The translations under genes and the position numbers were made by a program. From Neoasaia chiangmaiensis (GTDB taxonomy: Bacteria > Pseudomonadota > Alphaproteobacteria > Acetobacterales > Acetobacteraceae), in the NCBI RefSeq assembly GCF_002005465.1, contig NZ_CP014691.1, forward strand, positions 1,922,001-1,986,000: a DNA stretch of 64,000 nucleotides, read 5' to 3'. Below, piece by piece: positions 20,041-47,132 of the stretch (positions within the stretch are counted from its first letter, which is position 1; the number at the start of each line of letters is the position of its first letter). Below the pieces are notes generated by a model, which saw only the letters and a list, made by a program, of their open reading frames with translations, did no database searches and was not told where the DNA came from.

Positions 20041-21657
20041 TCAGGCGGCCTCCGCTTCCGCGCGGATGGCCGCCGCCACCCATTCGGCCACGCGGATACC
20101 GTCGATCCCGGCGGAGAGGATGCCGCCCGCGTAGCCCGCGCCCTCGCCAGCGGGGAACAGGCCGCGCCAGTTCGGGTTCTGCCCGGACGCGTCCCGCGCA
20201 ATGCGGATCGGGGAGGAGGTGCGCGTTTCCACGCCGGTCATCACGGCGTCGTTCATGGAAAAGCCCTTCAGCTTGCGTTCGAAACGCGGCAGGGCCTCGC
20301 GAATGGCCTCGATGGCGAAGTCCGGCAGGCTGAGTGACAGATCGGTCGGCGTCACGCCCGGCCTGTAGGACGGCACGACGCTGCCCAGGTGCGTGGAGGG
20401 CCGTCCCGCCAGAAAATCGCCGACGAGTTGGGCGGGGGCCTTATAATCGCCGCCGCCTGCCTCGAAGGCCGCGCGCTCCCACTGGCGCTGGAATGCGACG
20501 CCGCCCAGCACGTCGTCGGGAAAGTCGCGTTCCGGCGTGACCTCGACGACGATTCCGGCATTTGCGTTCCGTTCCGCGCGCGAATACTGGCTCATGCCGT
20601 TGGTGACGACCTGATTGGCTTCCGACGTGGCGGCCACGACGGTGCCCCCTGGGCACATGCAGAAGGAATAGACCCCGCGACCGTTGCTGGCGTGGTGCAC
20701 CAGCTTGTAGTCGGCGGCGCCCAGCAGCTTGTGTCCGGCCTGGGGGCCGAAGCGCGCCGTATCGATCATGGACTGCGGATGTTCGATCCGCACGCCGATG
20801 GAGAACGGTTTGGCGTTCATGGCCACGTCGTTTTCGCGCAGCATCTCGAAACTGTCGCGGGCGGAGTGGCCGATCGCCAGCACGACGTGGGAGGCCGGCA
20901 GTTCGGTGCCGTCCGCAAGGCGCAGGGCACGGATGCGTCTGGGCGTGCCGTCGCCGATGATGCCGTCCACCCGGGTGTTGAACCGGTATTCGCCGCCAAG
21001 GCGTTCGATCTCCGCGCGGATATGTTCGACCATCGAGACGAGGCGGAACGTGCCGATATGCGGTTTGGAAACGTAGAGGATTTCTTCCGGTGCGCCGGCC
21101 TTGACGAATTCCTCCAGAACCTTGCGGCCGAGATGGCGGGGATCGCTGACGCCGCTCCAGAGCTTGCCGTCCGAGAACGTGCCTGCCCCGCCTTCGCCGA
21201 ACTGCACGTTGCTTTCCGGGGTGAGGACGGATTTGCGCCAGAGCGCGAAGGTATCGACCGTGCGCTCCCGCACGACCTTCCCACGTTCCAGAACGATCGG
21301 GCGCAGGCCGGCCTGCGCGAGGATCAGGGCCGCCATCAACCCGCAGGGCCCCGCGCCGATCACGACCGGGCGCGGTGACTCCGGCGGTGCTTCCGGCAGG
21401 TGGTAGCGCGTATCGGGCGTGCGCTGGACGTTGGGATCGTCCGCGAAGCGCGCCAGCACGGCTTCCTCGTCGTCGACCTCGACATCCAGCGTGTAGACAA
21501 GCATGATGTTGCCGCGTTTACGGGCGTCGTAACCACGGCGGGCGATGTGGATGTTGCGGATGGTGGATGCGTCGACTTTTAGCTTCTCGGATATCATTGT
21601 CATGAGAGAGCTTGGCGCATCTTCTAACGGTGCCTGGATTTGATTTAATCTTATCAC
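20041..21657 (-). CDS. FAD-dependent oxidoreductase, COG2509 type
   Basis: This 538-residue flavoprotein has an N-terminal domain (IRLNQIQAPLEDA, characteristic of the family) before a Rossmann FAD-binding motif VVIGAGPCGLMAALILAQAG at about residue 97. Further conserved blocks are ERTVDTFALW, NVQFGEGGAGTFSDGKL, VVLAIGHSARDSFEML, and the C-terminal GLFPAGEGAGYAGGILSAGIDGIRVAE that completes the FAD site. The physiological substrate of COG2509 proteins is not established. GTG 21657 is used because the family N-terminus begins there; no clear ribosome site is visible and ATG 21603 is an alternative. Confidence 0.85.
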   Translation of the reverse strand: MIRLNQIQAPLEDAPSSLMTMISEKLKVDASTIRNIHIARRGYDARKRGNIMLVYTLDVEVDDEEAVLARFADDPNVQRTPDTRYHLPEAPPESPRPVVIGAGPCGLMAALILAQAGLRPIVLERGKVVRERTVDTFALWRKSVLTPESNVQFGEGGAGTFSDGKLWSGVSDPRHLGRKVLEEFVKAGAPEEILYVSKPHIGTFRLVSMVEHIRAEIERLGGEYRFNTRVDGIIGDGTPRRIRALRLADGTELPASHVVLAIGHSARDSFEMLRENDVAMNAKPFSIGVRIEHPQSMIDTARFGPQAGHKLLGAADYKLVHHASNGRGVYSFCMCPGGTVVAATSEANQVVTNGMSQYSRAERNANAGIVVEVTPERDFPDDVLGGVAFQRQWERAAFEAGGGDYKAPAQLVGDFLAGRPSTHLGSVVPSYRPGVTPTDLSLSLPDFAIEAIREALPRFERKLKGFSMNDAVMTGVETRTSSPIRIARDASGQNPNWRGLFPAGEGAGYAGGILSAGIDGIRVAEWVAAAIRAEAEAA

Positions 21658-21750: not shown

Positions 21751-21779
21751 TTGACATATGCGACGGTTCGTAGTAAATT
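21751..21779 (+). promoter_or_regulatory. Sigma-70-like promoter before glycosyltransferase pair
   Basis: A perfect -35 TTGACA (21751-21756) is followed after 17 bases by TAAATT (21774-21779) as -10, about 55 bases before the GTG start at 21836. The surrounding 170-bp leader is AT-rich, unlike the GC-rich neighbourhood. Strength is inferred from sequence only. Confidence 0.55.
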
Positions 21780-21835: not shown

Positions 21836-23173
21836 GTGTCTAAATACAGTTATTGCCTTGTCGCTTGCGCACGTTGGGAAACCGACACAATTCAGGAATG
21901 GCTTCTGTATCATCGATCTATTGGTTTCGAGCACGTCTACCTTTACTGCAATGATGACGATGCCTCGGAATTATATGAAAAAGTCATGCCTTTCAACATG
22001 GTGGACAAGCCTTTTGTGACGTTCAATCACCACCATATTCAGGGTGACCAGAAAGGGATGTACAATCATTTTCTGGATAAATATGCTAAAGAGACAGAAT
22101 ATTTCATATTTTTGGACGTAGACGAATTTATCTGCATTAGAAATATCAATAATATAGACAACTTTGTAAAAGGCGGATTTAGAGATTGTGATGATATATA
22201 TTTCAACTGGCTATCATTTGGGCCCAACGGTCACTTAACCCGACCCAAAGGTTCTGTTCTAGAGAATTACACAAGACGTGACAAAAGCCCATTTGTTTTG
22301 ACAAAGCATCTTGTTAAAACAGCGTCTTTCTTCGAGAAACAAAGCCGCGATCATTTACCTCCGCCTTTCCATCATGCATTCTCTGCGTCGGAAAATTGGA
22401 TAGCAAAGAACGTCTTGGGTGAAGATATGATGACATATCTTAGCTCCGATCATGCTACGCAGGCACACTACCTTTCAATGGACAGGAGAGGCGAACGGAT
22501 TATTGAGACCGCCTGTATTTTTCACTATGCGTTCAAGTCGCTCGATGATCTGGAAAGACGGGTGCGTCGAGGCCTGAAAGGCGCTTTTGTGGGCCAGAAA
22601 ATATGGCAGGATGCATTTGACTCTGAAAGCTATGTATCACTTTTCGAAAGTCTCAATACTGTTGAAGATACATATTTACAAGAATATTGGAATGGATTGG
22701 TTTTAAATGGTGTTTCGCAGAGGACGCTGCCCGGTAAAGCCATCTCGCTTAACAAGGCAAGACTTGGCAATGCCAGTCAGAGTTCTGTGTCTAAATGGTC
22801 TCTAAACGAAGACCCACAAATTGAAGCGCAAGGCGCCATAAGCGGCTCACCTACTGGCGGGTATCAATTTCATACTGATGCTGACGATACACCATGGTGG
22901 GCACTAAAATTTCCCGAAGTCACCGAGATATCGCAAATTATAATCTATAATAGAATGGATGTTCCGCACAGAGCAAACAATATCGTTGTCGAATGTTGTT
23001 CTGATGATGGAATCTGGCAAGAGGTAGGCGCCTGGAATTCCGACACGCCATTTGGCGGTATTGATGGAAAGCCTTTTGTTATAGATATAGAAGAAAAAAT
23101 CAAGATAAACGGAATAAGAATTCGTGGATTATTCAAAGACTACTTGCATTTAGATCAAGTTGAAATATATTGA
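21836..23173 (+). CDS. GT92-like glycosyltransferase with C-terminal discoidin-like module
   Basis: This 445-residue protein starts at GTG 21836 behind TGAGG. The N-terminal GT-A domain begins SYCLVACARWETDTIQEWLLYH, has HVYLYCNDD, and carries the metal-binding FIFLDVDEFI at about residues 91-100, as in GT92/Glyco_tranf_2_4 enzymes. It therefore transfers a sugar from a nucleotide donor, acceptor unknown. From about residue 315 a separate beta-rich module begins (QSSVSKWS ... HTDADDTPWW ... YNRMD ... TPFGGIDGKP ... QVEIY), resembling F5/8-type carbohydrate-binding domains. The same module ends the next protein. Base and codon use are AT-rich compared with neighbours, suggesting transfer. No signal peptide. 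Confidence 0.82.
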   Translation: MSKYSYCLVACARWETDTIQEWLLYHRSIGFEHVYLYCNDDDASELYEKVMPFNMVDKPFVTFNHHHIQGDQKGMYNHFLDKYAKETEYFIFLDVDEFICIRNINNIDNFVKGGFRDCDDIYFNWLSFGPNGHLTRPKGSVLENYTRRDKSPFVLTKHLVKTASFFEKQSRDHLPPPFHHAFSASENWIAKNVLGEDMMTYLSSDHATQAHYLSMDRRGERIIETACIFHYAFKSLDDLERRVRRGLKGAFVGQKIWQDAFDSESYVSLFESLNTVEDTYLQEYWNGLVLNGVSQRTLPGKAISLNKARLGNASQSSVSKWSLNEDPQIEAQGAISGSPTGGYQFHTDADDTPWWALKFPEVTEISQIIIYNRMDVPHRANNIVVECCSDDGIWQEVGAWNSDTPFGGIDGKPFVIDIEEKIKINGIRIRGLFKDYLHLDQVEIY

Positions 23174-23186
23174 TTCTGAGGAAGGT

Positions 23187-24788
23187 ATGAAAGCATACAA
23201 GAAGGACTTGAGCTCCTTAATGGTCTTGAGTCATAGTCCTGATGTTCACATATATCAAAACGCCTTATATGTTCCAAAGAGATTCAACTTTGATCCTGAC
23301 GTTGGTATTTACACCGAAGTAGGATTTCTTGTTCCGCAAGCAGCGCTTTTCCATAAAAGGCCGATGGAGACGAAGGGACATAGCAGTATCAGTTCTTTGG
23401 ATATGACCCTAGAATATGATATCTGCGAGAGCGCATTTTATGTTGGACATATCGACTTACATTATGGGCATGTAATTACTGAATTTTTATCGCGCCTATG
23501 GGCTTTAAGAGATTATAGACGAGATAAACAAAAACTCCTGTTCCATTCTATATATGATGAAGAGACTGTCTTTTCTTGCTCTTGGTTTGTTGAACTTTTG
23601 GCGTTGTGCGGACTTTCTCGAGATGACTTTCAATATTTTTGTGTGCCGACAAGAATAAGGAAATTAACAGTTCCATCGCCCGCTTTTGGTGAGAATAATT
23701 TCGTCTATAAATCGTTCTCAGATTATTGTTCTCAAGTAGGTCGGTTGATCGAAAAAGAAAATCGCAAAAAATATTTTAATAAGAACATTTGGTTGGCTAG
23801 GTACAAACTAACAAAAGGAACTTTTAAGTTATCAAATGAGGAAGAATTGTGTAATGAACTTATTAAATACGGATTCAAAATTGTTTTCCCGGAATTTTTG
23901 TCTGTGTCGGAGCAGATATCACTATTTAATTCAAATGTTGTTTGTGGGCTCATAGGGTCCGCATTTCATACGTCCATTTTCCAAAAAAAATCCAGAATTG
24001 TCTGTCTTACTAAAAATCAGCCTTCAGAGAATTTTATTCTGATGGATGCTGTTAGTGATGCTGATGCAACCTATCTGGATTACCCATTGTCGGATGCTGA
24101 ACAAGACAAAAACTTTTTTTATACTCAGAAGTGCGAAAACATATCTGATATTGCTCAGATAATATTTAAAGAGTGTCAAAATAAATTAGAAAAAATCGAT
24201 ACGAAAGAGGACTTGTTGAAAGAAACTATCAGAAATTATGAAAATGCCGAGTTAAAAAAAATCGATGAACGTTTTCGTAGAGCAATACCGGGAAAAATAA
24301 AAGAAAGGGCCCGTTTTCAAGAATATGAAAATCTAACAGGAGAAAAATTTTTACTAAAAACTGAGCAGAGCTCTGTTTCAAAATGGTCTAAATATATGGA
24401 TCGAAATAAAGAATCTCATCGTGCATTGGAATTATCTACTGATTTAGATCATTATATTCATACGGATGAAGAAGAAAATCCATGGTGGTCAATAAGTTTT
24501 CTATTTTCGTGTGACATAAATGAAATAGTTGTTTATAATAGGATCGATAGCGTATTTTTGGCTTCAAAATCTAATGATATAATTATCAATTTCACTTATG
24601 AAGACGGAATTTCAAAGGATGTTTATTTACGAAAATCATCAATCCCATTTGGCGGAATGGATGGACATCCTTTGGTTTGGAAACCAATAACTTTGGAACG
24701 CTCTGTAAAAACCGTTAAGTTAGAGCTGAGGAAAAAATCGTTTCTTCATTTTTCCTACATTGAGATTTTTGGGCGACGATCAGCATAA
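23187..24788 (+). CDS. GT61/DUF563-like glycosyltransferase with C-terminal discoidin-like module
   Basis: From ATG 23187 (GAGGAAGG just upstream) this is 533 residues. The central region has HIDLHYGHVITEFLSRLWAL (about residues 88-107), a DUF563/GT61 hallmark. Later, LSVSEQISLFNSNVVCGLIGSAFHTSIF matches the GT61 segment that binds the donor. The C-terminal roughly 125 residues repeat the module of the upstream protein (QSSVSKWS, HTDEEENPWW, YNRID, IPFGGMDGHP, YIEIF). It starts 13 bp after the GT92-like gene on one transcript. It is strongly AT-rich and Lys/Asn-rich, unlike surrounding genes. Probably acts on a surface polysaccharide. Confidence 0.78.
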   Translation: MKAYKKDLSSLMVLSHSPDVHIYQNALYVPKRFNFDPDVGIYTEVGFLVPQAALFHKRPMETKGHSSISSLDMTLEYDICESAFYVGHIDLHYGHVITEFLSRLWALRDYRRDKQKLLFHSIYDEETVFSCSWFVELLALCGLSRDDFQYFCVPTRIRKLTVPSPAFGENNFVYKSFSDYCSQVGRLIEKENRKKYFNKNIWLARYKLTKGTFKLSNEEELCNELIKYGFKIVFPEFLSVSEQISLFNSNVVCGLIGSAFHTSIFQKKSRIVCLTKNQPSENFILMDAVSDADATYLDYPLSDAEQDKNFFYTQKCENISDIAQIIFKECQNKLEKIDTKEDLLKETIRNYENAELKKIDERFRRAIPGKIKERARFQEYENLTGEKFLLKTEQSSVSKWSKYMDRNKESHRALELSTDLDHYIHTDEEENPWWSISFLFSCDINEIVVYNRIDSVFLASKSNDIIINFTYEDGISKDVYLRKSSIPFGGMDGHPLVWKPITLERSVKTVKLELRKKSFLHFSYIEIFGRRSA

Positions 24789-24820: not shown

Positions 24821-25738
24821 ATGCACCACCACCACCACCACCACCACCACCATCCCACGACCTACGGCAGCGCTTTCGCCATCGGCATAGCGCTCAACGT
24901 CGCCTATATTCTCGCCGAGGTCATATGGGGCGTCTGGGCGCATTCCCTGTCGTTATTGTCCGATGCGGGGCATAACCTGTCCGATGTGCTGGGGCTGGGG
25001 GGTGCCTGGCTGGCGCAGCATCTGGCGGCGCGTGCGCCTTCGGCCCGGTTCACGTATGGTCTGCGGCGCTCCACCATTCTCTCGGCGCTGGGCAATGCGG
25101 TTCTGCTGCTGCTGGTGACGGGCGGTATCGTCTGGGAGGCTGTCCAGCGTCTGGTTCATCCTGCGCCGGTGGCGGGGATGACGGTCATGGTTGTGGCGTT
25201 CGCCGGTATCGTCATCAACGGTGCGACGGCGTTGCTGCTCATGCGCGACAGCCATCATGACCTGAACATGCGGGGTGCCTTCCTGCATATGGCGTCCGAT
25301 GCGCTCATGTCGTTCGCTGTGGTCGTGACTGGCCTTGTCATCATGCTGACGCGCTGGACGGTGCTCGATCCGATCGTCAGTCTCGTGGTGTCCGGCGTGA
25401 TCGTCTGGGGCACGTGGTCGCTTTTGCGCAAATCGCTGGATATGGCGCTGGATGCCGTGCCTGCGCGTATCGATCCGGCTGCCGTCGATACCGCGTTGCG
25501 GGGGCTGACGGGTGTCGCGGATGTGCATCATCTGCATATCTGGTCGCTCAGCACGACGGAAACGGCGCTGACGGTGCATCTCGTGGTCGATGAAAGCTTG
25601 ACGACGGATAATGCTCTGCTCCACACCGCAACGCATATGCTGATGCACCAATTCGATATCGCCCACCCGACCTTCCAGGTCGAGCGGGGCCACTGTGCCA
25701 CGCACGCGTCGGATGTGTGTGCCGTGCCGCACGCCTGA
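24821..25738 (+). CDS. CDF metal cation efflux protein, ZitB/CzcD type, with N-terminal His10
   Basis: This 305-residue inner-membrane proton antiporter exports divalent cations such as Zn2+ or Co2+. It has six predicted membrane segments, SLSLLSDAGHNLSD in helix 2 (metal-binding HxxxD pattern), HMASDALMS in helix 5 and a C-terminal cytoplasmic domain with HHLHIWSLSTTETALTVHLV. The protein begins with ten consecutive histidines and contains further histidines near the end, plausible cytosolic metal sensors. ATG 24821 directly precedes the histidine codons. A second CDF gene follows after 5 bp. Confidence 0.9.
   Translation: MHHHHHHHHHHPTTYGSAFAIGIALNVAYILAEVIWGVWAHSLSLLSDAGHNLSDVLGLGGAWLAQHLAARAPSARFTYGLRRSTILSALGNAVLLLLVTGGIVWEAVQRLVHPAPVAGMTVMVVAFAGIVINGATALLLMRDSHHDLNMRGAFLHMASDALMSFAVVVTGLVIMLTRWTVLDPIVSLVVSGVIVWGTWSLLRKSLDMALDAVPARIDPAAVDTALRGLTGVADVHHLHIWSLSTTETALTVHLVVDESLTTDNALLHTATHMLMHQFDIAHPTFQVERGHCATHASDVCAVPHA
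24824..24853 (+). repeat. (CAC)n trinucleotide repeat encoding His10
   Basis: Nine CAC codons and one CAT lie directly after the start codon of the CDF transporter. Slippage here would change histidine number without shifting the frame. Confidence 0.9.
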
Positions 25739-44448: not shown

Positions 44449-44946
44449 ATGACCGATGAAACCATTGTAGCCATTTTCGATTCCGCCCGTCGGGCGCAGA
44501 CGGCGGCTGACGACCTGATTGTCAACGACGTTTCGCCATTCGACATCAAGCTTTATGCACACGAACCGGAACGCACGATCGACGAGGCGCTGCGTGCCGA
44601 GAACGAGATGCACCGTCGGCGCAGTTTCTGGACATGGCTGATCGGCGATAGGGAGGCCCGCGATACCGACCATCGGCTCCATCATGCATTGTATGACAGG
44701 ACGATCGGAAAAGGCCGCGCCCTGTTGACGGTGGTTCCGGGGGCGCGCCCCGGCAAGGGGCGCATCATGATTATGCTCCGCGCGCACAAGCCGCTCGAAA
44801 TCGTCATGCGCCCCGCCGCCGTGCCCCGGACGGTGAAGCCGCGCGACTTCATCAACGATATTGACGAAGCGGATGGTGCGGTACGGATCGACATCGGGGC
44901 GATGGGACATGTCAGCGTCACGCCGCAACCGCGCCAGAAATACTGA
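44449..44946 (+). CDS. Stress-protein-like small protein, paralogue 2
   Basis: A 165-residue paralogue of the preceding gene. ETIVAIFDSARRAQTAADDL, RSFWTWLIGDREARDTDHRLHHALYDR and GKGRALLTVVPGA align with it along the first 110 residues. A C-terminal extension of about 45 residues (KPRDFINDIDEADGAVRIDIGAMGHVSV) is unique. ATG 44449 is selected because paralogy begins there; the upstream frame is not conserved. The gene ends 11 bp before the attachment repeat of the tRNA-Gln element. Confidence 0.65.
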   Translation: MTDETIVAIFDSARRAQTAADDLIVNDVSPFDIKLYAHEPERTIDEALRAENEMHRRRSFWTWLIGDREARDTDHRLHHALYDRTIGKGRALLTVVPGARPGKGRIMIMLRAHKPLEIVMRPAAVPRTVKPRDFINDIDEADGAVRIDIGAMGHVSVTPQPRQKY

Positions 44947-44957
44947 TTTTTCGGATT

Positions 44958-44973
44958 TTGGCTGGGGCGGGAG
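44958..44973. repeat. Distal attachment repeat (copy of tRNA-Gln 3' end)
   Basis: Identical over 16 nt to 47057-47072. The 270 bp to its right before the first island gene carry no recognisable gene, only GC-to-AT transition sequence. Confidence 0.68.
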
Positions 44974-45221
44974 ATCGGTCCTGCCCTGCCCTGCCTTGCT
45001 TGATGGTGCTGCGACCTAGGCACGTCGTCTGACAACACAGGGCTTGTTTGCCTATAGGGTGGGCAAACCTCTTAAAGTCCCGAATATGACTGCATGGCGG
45101 ACGACTAATTCCTGAAAATCCATTCTGCAATTTTGGTACTGGAATTGCAGGCTGAGAATCTCGGTTATGGAATTTACCTATTCCGGAAAGGTGTTTTTTT
45201 GGAGTAGAGAAAGTGGATATT

Positions 45222-46214
45222 TTACAAAGAGCCAAATATTTTTGGATAAACCCAAGAAGAAAAAATGTTTACAATTAAAGCCACTATTACTGTAACGACA
45301 AGAAATGATGCTGTAGAAATAAATCTTTTCTTTTTTAAACCTATTGAGTTTATTCTATCTTGGTCACCAAGCGTGAAATCAATAAGCATGCGGGGGCCGA
45401 GTAAAGAAACATTTTTGTATATTAAATCTATTAACATTTCAATTATTGCATCCGATATAATTGAAATTGCAAAGCAAAATAGAACTATAGATGTTAGTGT
45501 GCTTGGCCCATATTTGTGATGTATAACGTTTATTGAGGCCCCGATAAAAGGGGATGCTTTCAGTATCACAGGGGAAAAAGATCGGAATTTTCCCTCTATT
45601 TTCCTAAAAAATTTTACATATCCACTTTCTATTTGTTTTGGTAGGGAATTAACCCATCCATTTATTGTTGCGCTTAATGCTTGAGCTACCATATAATCTG
45701 AGTATTCAAGAGACATTTTAATTGCAGGCGTGCCAATAAAACCTCTAAGAAAAAACGGAACGCTATCATCTCTTTCATCAACTTCATCTTTATCTATAAC
45801 AATAGACACTTTATATCTTTGAGCAAAATCTTTAACTGTTTCTATTTCTGCCGGAAGAATAATTAAAAATTCCATTTCATACGAAATGGTTGATGTTTGC
45901 TCTCTAGAGCTCATGTCTGCAATTTTAAATAATTGGATGCTATTAAATGTTCTAGAGCCGTGCCTTCGTTGCACATGAACAACTTCTTCGTGACTTCCTA
46001 CTATCTTATATTGAACAATAGTTTGGTGCATCATTGCATGCAAATTAACAATATCACTCGGTTTTAGCGTGTATCCCCCATTGAATATTCTATTAATTCT
46101 GTCAACTTTTTTTGTTATTTTATGAAATATCGCTTGGTATGCTCCAAATGGAATTAATTCATCGTTTATGAATACAGGACGACTAGAGAGATCTTGAGAA
46201 GAACCAGGAATCAT
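45222..46214 (-). CDS. Orphan membrane-anchored protein in tRNA-Gln element
   Basis: A 330-residue protein, AT-rich and Ile/Lys/Ser-rich, unlike the host genes. ATG 46214 is used; an in-frame TTG three codons upstream is possible. The first roughly 230 residues look soluble, with a likely coiled or helical start (FHKITKKVDRINRIFNGGY), a MMHQTIVQYKIVGSHEEVVHVQRRHGSRTF segment and beta-like FLIILPAEIETVKDF. Two C-terminal hydrophobic segments follow: SIVLFCFAISIISDAIIEMLIDLIY and FISTASFLVVTVIVALIVNIF. No family recognised. Single-gene cargo of this design in a tRNA element could be a membrane effector or phage-defence gene, but that is a guess. Confidence 0.6.
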   Translation of the reverse strand: MIPGSSQDLSSRPVFINDELIPFGAYQAIFHKITKKVDRINRIFNGGYTLKPSDIVNLHAMMHQTIVQYKIVGSHEEVVHVQRRHGSRTFNSIQLFKIADMSSREQTSTISYEMEFLIILPAEIETVKDFAQRYKVSIVIDKDEVDERDDSVPFFLRGFIGTPAIKMSLEYSDYMVAQALSATINGWVNSLPKQIESGYVKFFRKIEGKFRSFSPVILKASPFIGASINVIHHKYGPSTLTSIVLFCFAISIISDAIIEMLIDLIYKNVSLLGPRMLIDFTLGDQDRINSIGLKKKRFISTASFLVVTVIVALIVNIFSSWVYPKIFGSL

Positions 46215-46546
46215 TTTTCGCAAATCCGGCAGTTTTACTACAAAGTATAGAATTAATTATGTTTTAGAAATTAACAACATCAAATAAATAAAAAAGTTGT
46301 AAAAAATAATTTGATGAGTTATGTTTTGTAATTCTGAGATAGATTGAGATTTCTGGCGGTATTATAAAGCCGTGAAAAGCAGACAAAAAATAACTGTAAT
46401 GTTTCTCCAAGAAAAAATTAAAAATAAACCATATGGAGTTTGGTTATTATTGAGTATCTATATCAAAGAAATTTTTAAGAAATAAAAAGATTAATTGATA
46501 TATATTTGTATAATAAAAGTTGTCCTTTCTAAGGAAAAGATTTAGC
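46215..46546. other. AT-rich noncoding stretch
   Basis: No gene seen. Dense stop codons in all frames and long A/T runs; it probably holds the promoter of the leftward orphan gene, but no single -35/-10 pair stands out. Confidence 0.5.
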
Positions 46547-46956
46547 TGTCATCAGCTCGGATGACAGACTTCAGTTCAGGAAGCTGCTGAAAAAGATTCA
46601 ATCCGGAGATGAGCTTGTTGTGATGAAGCTCGACCGGCTGGGAAGGTCCATCCTTGATATCCTGACGGATTAGTCAGAATCTGAGGGGCCAAGGCGTCTC
46701 TATCACCTTCCATGGCGTGGGGACCATCAGGGATGACATGATGGGAAGCATCTGCTGTCCTTTACAGAGTTCGAACGTGCTCTGATGATCGAGCGCGCCC
46801 AGTCTGGCAGAAAGAGAGCCACGACCAACGGTTAAACTCTCCAGCCCGGCCAGAGACACTATCAAGCGATGTTATGAGCGTAAGGCAGGAACTGCATTGG
46901 CAAAAGAATATGGGATTGGTTTGCCGACTGTTCGGAGAGGTGCAGCAGAAAGCTGA
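46547..46956 (+). pseudogene. Serine recombinase (resolvase/invertase) relic
   Basis: Four frame segments read as one resolvase. First FRKLLKKIQSGDELVVMKLDRLGRSILDIL (the conserved DRLGR motif), then a stop. Next LRGQGVSITFHGVGTIRDDMMGS in another frame. Then FTEFERALMIERAQSGRKRA (the E-helix), a stop, and finally RDTIKRCYERKAGTALAKEYGIGLPTVRRG, the helix-turn-helix. The N-terminal catalytic serine region is absent. At least three frameshifts and stops make it non-functional. It lies 100 bp from tRNA-Gln inside the element. Confidence 0.75.
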
Positions 46957-47056
46957 TTTCAGGGGCCTACAGAATCCCTGAATTCGTCTGGACTGTCGCT
47001 TCCGTTATTCCCGGAGCGGCTTTTTTCCGGGCCATCAGCGTTCGATTTATCGGTGC

Positions 47057-47072
47057 TTGGCTGGGGCGGGAG
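47057..47072. repeat. tRNA-proximal attachment repeat
   Basis: Exact 16-nt match to 44958-44973; overlaps the 3' end of tRNA-Gln. Confidence 0.68.
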
Positions 47073-47132
47073 GATTCGAACCTCCGCATGGCGGAATCAA
47101 AATCCGCTGCCTTACCACTTGGCTACGCCCCA
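47058..47132 (-). tRNA. tRNA-Gln (anticodon TTG)
   Basis: Minus-strand cloverleaf: acceptor TGGGGCG/CGCCCCA, D-arm GCC...GGC, anticodon stem GCGGA/TCCGC with loop TTTTGAT (anticodon TTG), T-arm GGAGG-TTCGAAT-CCTCC, and encoded GCCA end. It serves as the integration site of the AT-rich element. Confidence 0.95.

Follow-up and report, generated by a model that had tools for sequence, protein, structure and literature searches.

A predicted F-type-lectin-like module at the C-termini of two glycosyltransferases of unrelated fold in Neoasaia chiangmaiensis and on other proteins of the Acetobacteraceae

F-type lectins have been described in animal immunity, in bacterial toxins, and in glycosidases, and CBM47 is another label for the F-type lectin domain (FTLD). 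The subject here is a pair of adjacent, codirectional genes, A and B, which lie in a 64,000 bp stretch (the window; positions 1,922,001–1,986,000 of NZ_CP014691.1) of the 3.41 Mb one-contig genome of Neoasaia chiangmaiensis and encode two glycosyltransferases of unrelated fold, both ending in a predicted domain of this type. The fucose contacts of F-type lectins are, in eel agglutinin numbering, His52, Arg79, and Arg86; the passage that gives them (PMC5712786) prints the spacing as HX24R, but its own residue numbers 52 and 79 correspond to x26. The same source, in its summary of Bishnoi et al. (2015), reports prokaryotic FTLDs fused to glycoenzymes, lipases, and methyltransferases; that summary names neither glycosyltransferases (word count 0 in the text) nor one family that uses the module across transferase folds. 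In the titles and opening lines of abstracts among the literature matches listed, no natural F-type-lectin glycosyltransferase is named, which is not a claim of absence from print, and in the relevant part of PMC11339370 the lectin belongs to a protein picked for engineered chimeras. The family-wide use of the module on glycosyltransferases of several folds, in tandem arrays and in fusions, seems to be new.

Polypeptide GalNAc-transferases are animal enzymes with a ricin-type lectin and a protein acceptor, and their lectin-guided choice of acceptor resembles the docking proposed below for A and B. The GT61 enzyme POMGNT2, whose fold recurs in the catalytic domain of B, has to our knowledge no F-type lectin domain. 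Binding modules of other kinds, which we take to be unrelated to the A module in the case of the plant GalS1 CBM95 and different from the A/B module in that of the Wzt-type carbohydrate-binding module (CBM), also accompany glycan synthesis or export. Published accounts describe a lectin domain of GalNAc-T1 that directs the transferase toward acceptors which already bear glycans (PMC10901373), GalS1 as a GT92 enzyme with an N-terminal polysaccharide-binding CBM95 (PMC11062476), and a Wzt-type ABC transporter of O-antigen export whose CBM recognizes the terminus of the growing chain (PMC11231755). GalS1 is like A in joining a GT92-fold catalytic domain to a glycan-binding module (putatively so in A), but its module is at the other end and it is a plant enzyme; CBM95 may play a comparable docking role there. 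The Wzt-type module is carried by a transporter, whereas that of A and B is on transferases.

Genes A and B and their common C-terminal module

The C-terminal ~135 residues of A and B are 37% identical, with a Smith-Waterman score of 230 that is far above the scores of all 2000 shuffled sequences (mean 27.3, standard deviation 4.7); the catalytic parts display no such likeness (score 36, shuffle mean 36.8). Separate AlphaFold2 models of the two full-length proteins (mean predicted local distance difference test scores of 89.6 for A and 80.4 for B) give the two C-terminal regions the same fold family. A first-pass annotation, made from the DNA sequence of the window, had proposed a module of ~125 residues common to a GT92-like and a GT61-like enzyme of unrelated folds; this is borne out by both the alignment and the models, and all of the motifs quoted for it are found in the A/B alignment. 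Its description of the module as discoidin-like (F5/8 type C or CBM32) names the right superfamily; by profile and by VIA-align, F-type lectins are closer. In Pfam, A matches the F5/8 type C family PF00754 above the cutoff (33.6 bits vs. 28.2), and the match of B is weak (PF22633, 18.8 bits vs. a cutoff of 27.8; PF00754 is not listed).

A profile search of the PDB was made with A2, an alignment of 80 modules hand-picked from 119 full-length family members described below. The first six sequences found are all F-type lectins: 3cqo (1.9e-29), 4gwi (3.8e-20), 3le0 (5.3e-20), 2j1r (1.1e-15), 2j22 (1.7e-14), and 1k12 (4.3e-14). Factor VIII (from 6.2e-11) and neuropilin come after them, and the GH31-linked CBM32 entry 4lpl reaches 8.9e-05. 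Both modeled modules have, as predicted structures, the F-type jelly-roll fold, and F-type lectins head their Foldseek and VIA-align lists. With A, VIA-align gives 3cqo a Z of 19.0 (root-mean-square deviation [rmsd] 1.8 over 134), 2j1t 18.3, 3lei 18.2, and 1k12 17.8; eight F-type lectin rows are followed by GalS1 and then by 1k12 and 2j22, and the best CBM32 has a Z of 16.7. With B the nine best rows are F-type lectins (3cqo, Z 17.8 and rmsd 2.3 over 139; 3lek 16.9; 2j1t 16.8), 1k12 scores 15.6, and the best CBM32 also 15.6.

The residues that contact fucose in known F-type lectins are present as His, Arg, Arg in A and as His, Arg, Lys in B. Of the 119 full-length modules, 107 have His at the first of these positions, 110 have Arg at the second, and 103 have Arg or Lys at the third, and 96 modules have the complete triad; within A2 the corresponding numbers are 76, 75, 74, and 69 of 80, so that the recount on all 119 modules lowered the share from 69/80 to 96/119. 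The triad His and Arg, together with PWW, are among the most conserved columns of A2. Eighty of 130 modules, A and B included, show the pattern H-x26-R-x-D (2.6 expected from shuffles), and 36 of 130 show the exact form H-x26-R-x-D-x4-(R/K) (0.27 expected); the x4 spacing is not found in A or B. Judged by sequence and predicted structure, the module is an F-type-lectin-like domain with the sugar-contact triad retained and the loops altered. Its best relatives by profile and structure (MsaFBP32, 3CQO; Streptococcus pneumoniae 2J1R and 2J22; lectinolysin, 3LEI; eel agglutinin, 1K12) have the His-Arg-Arg/Lys triad and a WW motif in common with it. It differs from them in being joined to presumably intracellular glycan-building enzymes and in having mostly lost the calcium motif; it also differs from the classical lectins in that its bearers mostly do not have GDP-fucose synthase and fucose binding is putative.

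Gene A (21,836–23,173, forward strand, GTG start) encodes 445 amino acids. Its catalytic domain (residues 1–295; 21,836–22,720) carries a DVDE motif at residue 94 and is modeled with a GT-A fold like that of plant GalS1 of family GT92 (8d3t; VIA-align Z 17.9, rmsd 3.6 over 224 residues). In Pfam it exceeds the cutoff for PF13704 (50.1 bits vs. 27.5) and falls short of that for GT92 itself (PF01697, 18.0 bits vs. 23). Six members of its sequence cluster (L070, L043, L046, L027, L020, and L096) do pass the latter, so A is labeled GT2_4/GT92-like. The lectin module comprises residues 302–445 (22,739–23,170; conserved core 22,778–23,170). His346 (22,871–22,873) aligns with the first triad residue, Arg373 (22,952–22,954) with the second at the H-x26-R spacing, and Arg379 (22,970–22,972) with the third, in a loop shorter than the canonical R-x-D-x4-R.

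The mechanically called open reading frame (ORF) of B opens with a TTG at 23,160 and overlaps the end of A; judged by eye, translation more likely begins at the ATG at 23,187, which follows a GAGGAAGG stretch, and this makes gene B 23,187–24,788 on the forward strand. In model numbering from 23,160, residues 26–346 (23,235–24,197) are the GT61 catalytic domain (PF04577, 64.1 bits vs. a cutoff of 27), which resembles POMGNT2 in VIA-align (8kb7 and 6xi2, Z 15.7, rmsd 4.7 over 286 and 290). Residues 387–542 (24,318–24,785; conserved core 24,366–24,773) are the lectin module, whose triad is His (24,459–24,461), Arg (24,540–24,542; H-x26-R), and, in a longer than canonical loop, Lys (24,567–24,569). 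No strongly hydrophobic segment is found in either protein (the best 19-residue Kyte-Doolittle means are 0.77 in A and 1.29 in B), and both are therefore probably cytoplasmic.

Distribution and partner enzymes

A profile built from the two modules of A and B finds 125 matches (E ≤ 0.001) in 76 of 299 sampled Acetobacteraceae genomes. Twenty-six of the 76 have two or more modules, and 29 of the matches, in 13 genomes, lie no more than 5 kb from another. The loci fetched, after removal of duplicates, comprise 127 ORFs with 130 modules, three ORFs having two modules each. Among the 127 modules of at least 100 amino acids, 99 are C-terminal, 15 N-terminal, 8 internal, and 5 otherwise placed.

The 128 nonmodule segments fall into 22 clusters, named from Pfam scans of one or a few representatives. 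The largest are GT92-like (45), CL1 (unnamed, 19), GT61 (14), and CL3 (hydrolase-like, 12), followed by CL4 (unnamed, 9), CL5 (GT11-like but below the cutoff, 6), FkbM methyltransferase (3), and smaller ones. Single proteins pass the Pfam cutoffs for FkbM (L044), another methyltransferase (L025), and GT17 (L085 and L137). The further glycosyltransferases with this module for which the first-pass annotation had suggested a search do exist, and those partner families that can be named (GT2_4/GT92, GT61, GT17, FkbM, the subthreshold GT11-like one, and a NodZ/FUT8-like one in a Burkholderiales MAG) are mostly directed at glycans. PDB profile searches of CL1, CL4, and CL5 found no convincing solved relative, that of CL3 hinted at a hydrolase-like fold (E 0.023), and NCBIfam gave a name to none of ten proteins. 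Five loci (L104, L105, L109, L118, and L119) have tandem genes for proteins of 660–720 amino acids in which an N-terminal module precedes a conserved 530-residue CL4 domain, for which neither a Pfam match (in L105) nor a PDB profile match was found.

Two natural fusions join the module to two catalytic domains at once. A single 950-codon ORF (L027:487-3336, from an assembly listed at 7% contamination) encodes a GT92-like domain, the module, and a GT61 domain, and is the A/B pair of the window merged into one chain; another (L020) has a GT92-like domain, the module, and the GT11-like family.

A third module in the window's own genome (contig positions 1,900,010–1,900,381, ~44 kb upstream of gene A) is carried by a 444-residue CL1 protein, has the triad, and lies in a gene directly after a GT92-like gene without a module. 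This GT92-like/CL1 pair (L041:6160-8396), ~22 kb upstream of the window, is near pqq-like genes named by eye. The same gene order, GT92-like and then CL1 with a module, recurs in one other genome (L094) among 80 inspected loci.

Beyond the Acetobacteraceae the module is rare. In a sample of the class, 4 of 385 genomes match at E ≤ 1e-6, namely that of the window and three others of the Acetobacteraceae; in a sample of the phylum 15 of 398 match, of which five belong to the family and three to different families within the class. Scanning named genomes with a sequence pattern gave 41 loci, among them Acidocella, Acidiphilium, Komagataeibacter, Gluconobacter, Acetobacter, and Methylobacterium, and also found the module near the N-terminus of other proteins in planctomycete and verrucomicrobial metagenome-assembled genomes (MAGs). 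In a Trichodesmium MAG (L143) five consecutive ORFs carry the module, the first of them truncated where the stretch ends, and three of the five match the FkbM-type methyltransferase cluster.

Proposed role, ligand, and history of the modules

The reading favored here, with moderate confidence, is that the module is a reusable acceptor-docking F-type lectin on the cytoplasmic glycan-building enzymes A and B. It would grip a sugar that is already on the growing glycan and so bring each of the two catalytic domains to the same acceptor; as a reusable tag, joined within the family to many enzymes that build or modify glycans, it could allow enzymes of unrelated fold to act on one product. That the A and B modules dock on one glycan or partner, as the first-pass annotation suggested, is plausible and is favored by the natural GT92-module-GT61 fusion; the fusion and the tandem arrays together argue for joint work on one product. 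The spread of the module, with its triad mostly intact, across the family's glycan-building enzymes suggests how bacteria might keep unrelated transferases on one growing glycan, and the module may serve as a ready sequence tag for finding enzymes that act together.

Several observations weigh against this proposal. The best CBM32 trails the best F-type lectin by only 2.3 Z units with A and 2.2 with B and ties with the lowest F-type rows, and because this gap is small and partly tied the sequence evidence carries weight. By sequence, 23 of the 119 modules do not have the complete triad, the third basic residue of B is a Lys within a longer loop, the calcium-binding motif h2DGx is absent from A and B, and its loose form h2DG is present in just 15 of the 119. 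Among the partners, CL1 (19), CL4 (9), and smaller clusters have no known function and CL3 is hydrolase-like at most. Two module proteins from MAGs do not look glycan-directed: in a Rhodopirellula MAG (L155) the module lies toward the N-terminus of a protein with hydrazine-synthase-alpha-like and cytochrome domains, and in an unclassified bacterial MAG (L156) toward that of a protein with an FGE-sulfatase domain. GDP-L-fucose synthase, finally, is found in 4 of the 76 module-bearing genomes vs. 24 of the 223 without a module (Fisher p 0.18; 2 of the 28 matches are weak, at 32% identity), and the window's own genome has no match at E ≤ 1e-40.

Since this synthase is not commoner where the module is, self-made L-fucose is a doubtful ligand, and these bacteria probably do not make the classical F-type ligand themselves through the GDP-L-fucose route. 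L-Fucose supply had been considered as an explanation after the module of a Sulfitobacter plasmid was seen to adjoin gmd and GDP-fucose synthase, and it was rejected when the 299 genomes showed no link. A second hint toward fucose is the Burkholderiales MAG ORF L150:3792-5447, in which a NodZ/FUT8-like domain is joined to the module. The L-rhamnose gene rmlD is present in 273 of the 299 genomes, that of the window included, and its near-universal presence makes L-rhamnose supply uninformative. A word search of a review of Acetobacteraceae exopolysaccharides (PMC10097950) finds rhamnose mentioned and the words fucose and galactose absent from the text searched. Our guess, based on the triad, is that the ligand is a sugar with an axial 4-OH, either fucose-like or galactose-like; if it is not L-fucose, the range known to be read by the F-type site would be widened. 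Extending this to the whole family is distinctly tentative: lectin-addressed glycan assembly in the Acetobacteraceae might use one F-type lectin domain as the acceptor address shared by a varying set of cytoplasmic enzymes of at least six catalytic kinds (glycosyltransferases, methyltransferases, and hydrolase-like enzymes), with genes and domains exchanged as cassettes and with a fucose-like ligand whose source, in most of these cells, is not GDP-L-fucose.

The first-pass annotation had called the module duplicated between the two enzymes, a point on which the evidence is divided. With 76 genomes of the family carrying it, the module is not a private duplication of A and B, and the module tree is ordered mainly by catalytic class. 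Both trees exclude fragments shorter than 110 amino acids, which keeps 119 of the 130 modules; the second has 82 of these 119 rows, eight long or divergent loci (including L081) and partner labels such as CL1, CL8, and FkbM having been left out. On the first tree catalytic class changes 13 times among five labels over 90 rows (the other 29 are unlabeled), vs. a shuffled mean of 44.1. Constraining the B module and the remaining GT61 modules to one clade gives a tree that the approximately unbiased test does not reject (p 0.711) and whose log-likelihood is 10.84 above that of the free tree. The codons speak for the annotation: of 46 identical amino acids in the A and B modules, 25 have identical codons vs. 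17.7 expected (p 0.016 in one post hoc test). There is some chance, though not a large one, that the module of B was copied from A (or that of A from B) once the genes were together. Copying would fit this codon agreement, an 85% DNA identity over 33 nt, and the rank of A among the 15 module matches listed for B, second by bits and first by identity (35.8%). A and B do cluster in both trees, though not with strong support: in the first L081 shares their group (support 90, long branches) and in the second they join alone, with support 72, after L081 was dropped; the GT61 constraint likewise goes against copying. With the modules only 37% identical, any copying is old.

It is rather unlikely that the fold is F-type while galactose or another axial-4-OH sugar is read in the manner of CBM32, with A and B binding different glycans and the common tail reflecting ancestry and not docking. 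The lack of association with GDP-fucose synthase, the CBM32 structures close behind the F-type lectins, the unequal triad loops of A and B, and the grouping of modules by catalytic class would all agree with this. The third basic residue, kept in 103 of 119 modules, goes beyond two-residue galactose sites, and the GT92-module-GT61 fusion and tandem arrays point the other way, toward joint action on one product. Improbable, in our view, is a module that no longer binds sugar and is now a structural, dimerization, or protein-docking domain. The galactose-binding-like superfamily does include nonlectin domains, such as APC10 and factor V C2, domains of this sort occur in the Foldseek fold lists, and the calcium motif has been lost, but the most conserved A2 columns include the sugar-contact His and Arg and the PWW. 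That two AT-rich genes resemble each other by mere chance or through low complexity is practically excluded by a best shuffled score of 50 vs. the real 230 and by two independent models that arrive at one fold family.

Genomic setting

Genes A and B have GC contents of 0.42 and 0.35, respectively, in surroundings of ~0.65. They lie between a FAD-type oxidoreductase gene (20,041–21,657, reverse strand) and a CDF-like metal transporter gene (24,821–25,738, forward strand), both named by eye and both outside the AT-rich insert; the transporter gene opens with a natural run of ten His codons (24,821–24,853). In a search of 60 genomes, 20 besides that of the window match both flanking genes. The two flanks are on one contig within 5 kb in seven of these and on different contigs in the other 13; in four of the seven they are only 229, 267, 304, and 325 bp apart, which indicates that the pair is an insertion, and in three they are 3.0–4.6 kb apart with other content between them. 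The most likely reading is a variable site into which the pair was inserted. The first-pass annotation had gone further, to acquisition as a unit; insertion is supported, but joint arrival is plausible at most, since the GC contents of A and B differ and neither a tRNA gene beside the pair nor a direct repeat of ≥16 nt flanking it was found (two repeats lie inside, one of them in the modules). It had also cited AT-richness with a consensus promoter of its own. The AT-richness is real, and a promoter-like site, TTGACA-17-TAAATT, does lie upstream of A (21,751–21,779, forward strand; 10 of 12 consensus positions), but as evidence it is weak, for the region has 12 such sites vs. 9.8 ± 2.8 in shuffles, an excess that is not significant.

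Phage and plasmid origins were considered and rejected. Viral contigs searched with the module of A alone, a query that reaches close relatives only, gave no match, and A has weak partial matches in six phage records (B was not searched in phages). Two of the module loci are plasmid records, and A and B match 79 and 6 plasmid records, respectively, none of which covers 80% of the query.

The window has a second AT-rich island at 44,900–47,060, where GC falls to 0.37 in a 2-kb profile. It contains an ORF of 333 codons (45,222–46,223, reverse strand) with no Pfam match, and it ends beside a tRNA-Gln gene (47,058–47,132, reverse strand); this island may be a tRNA-side insertion.

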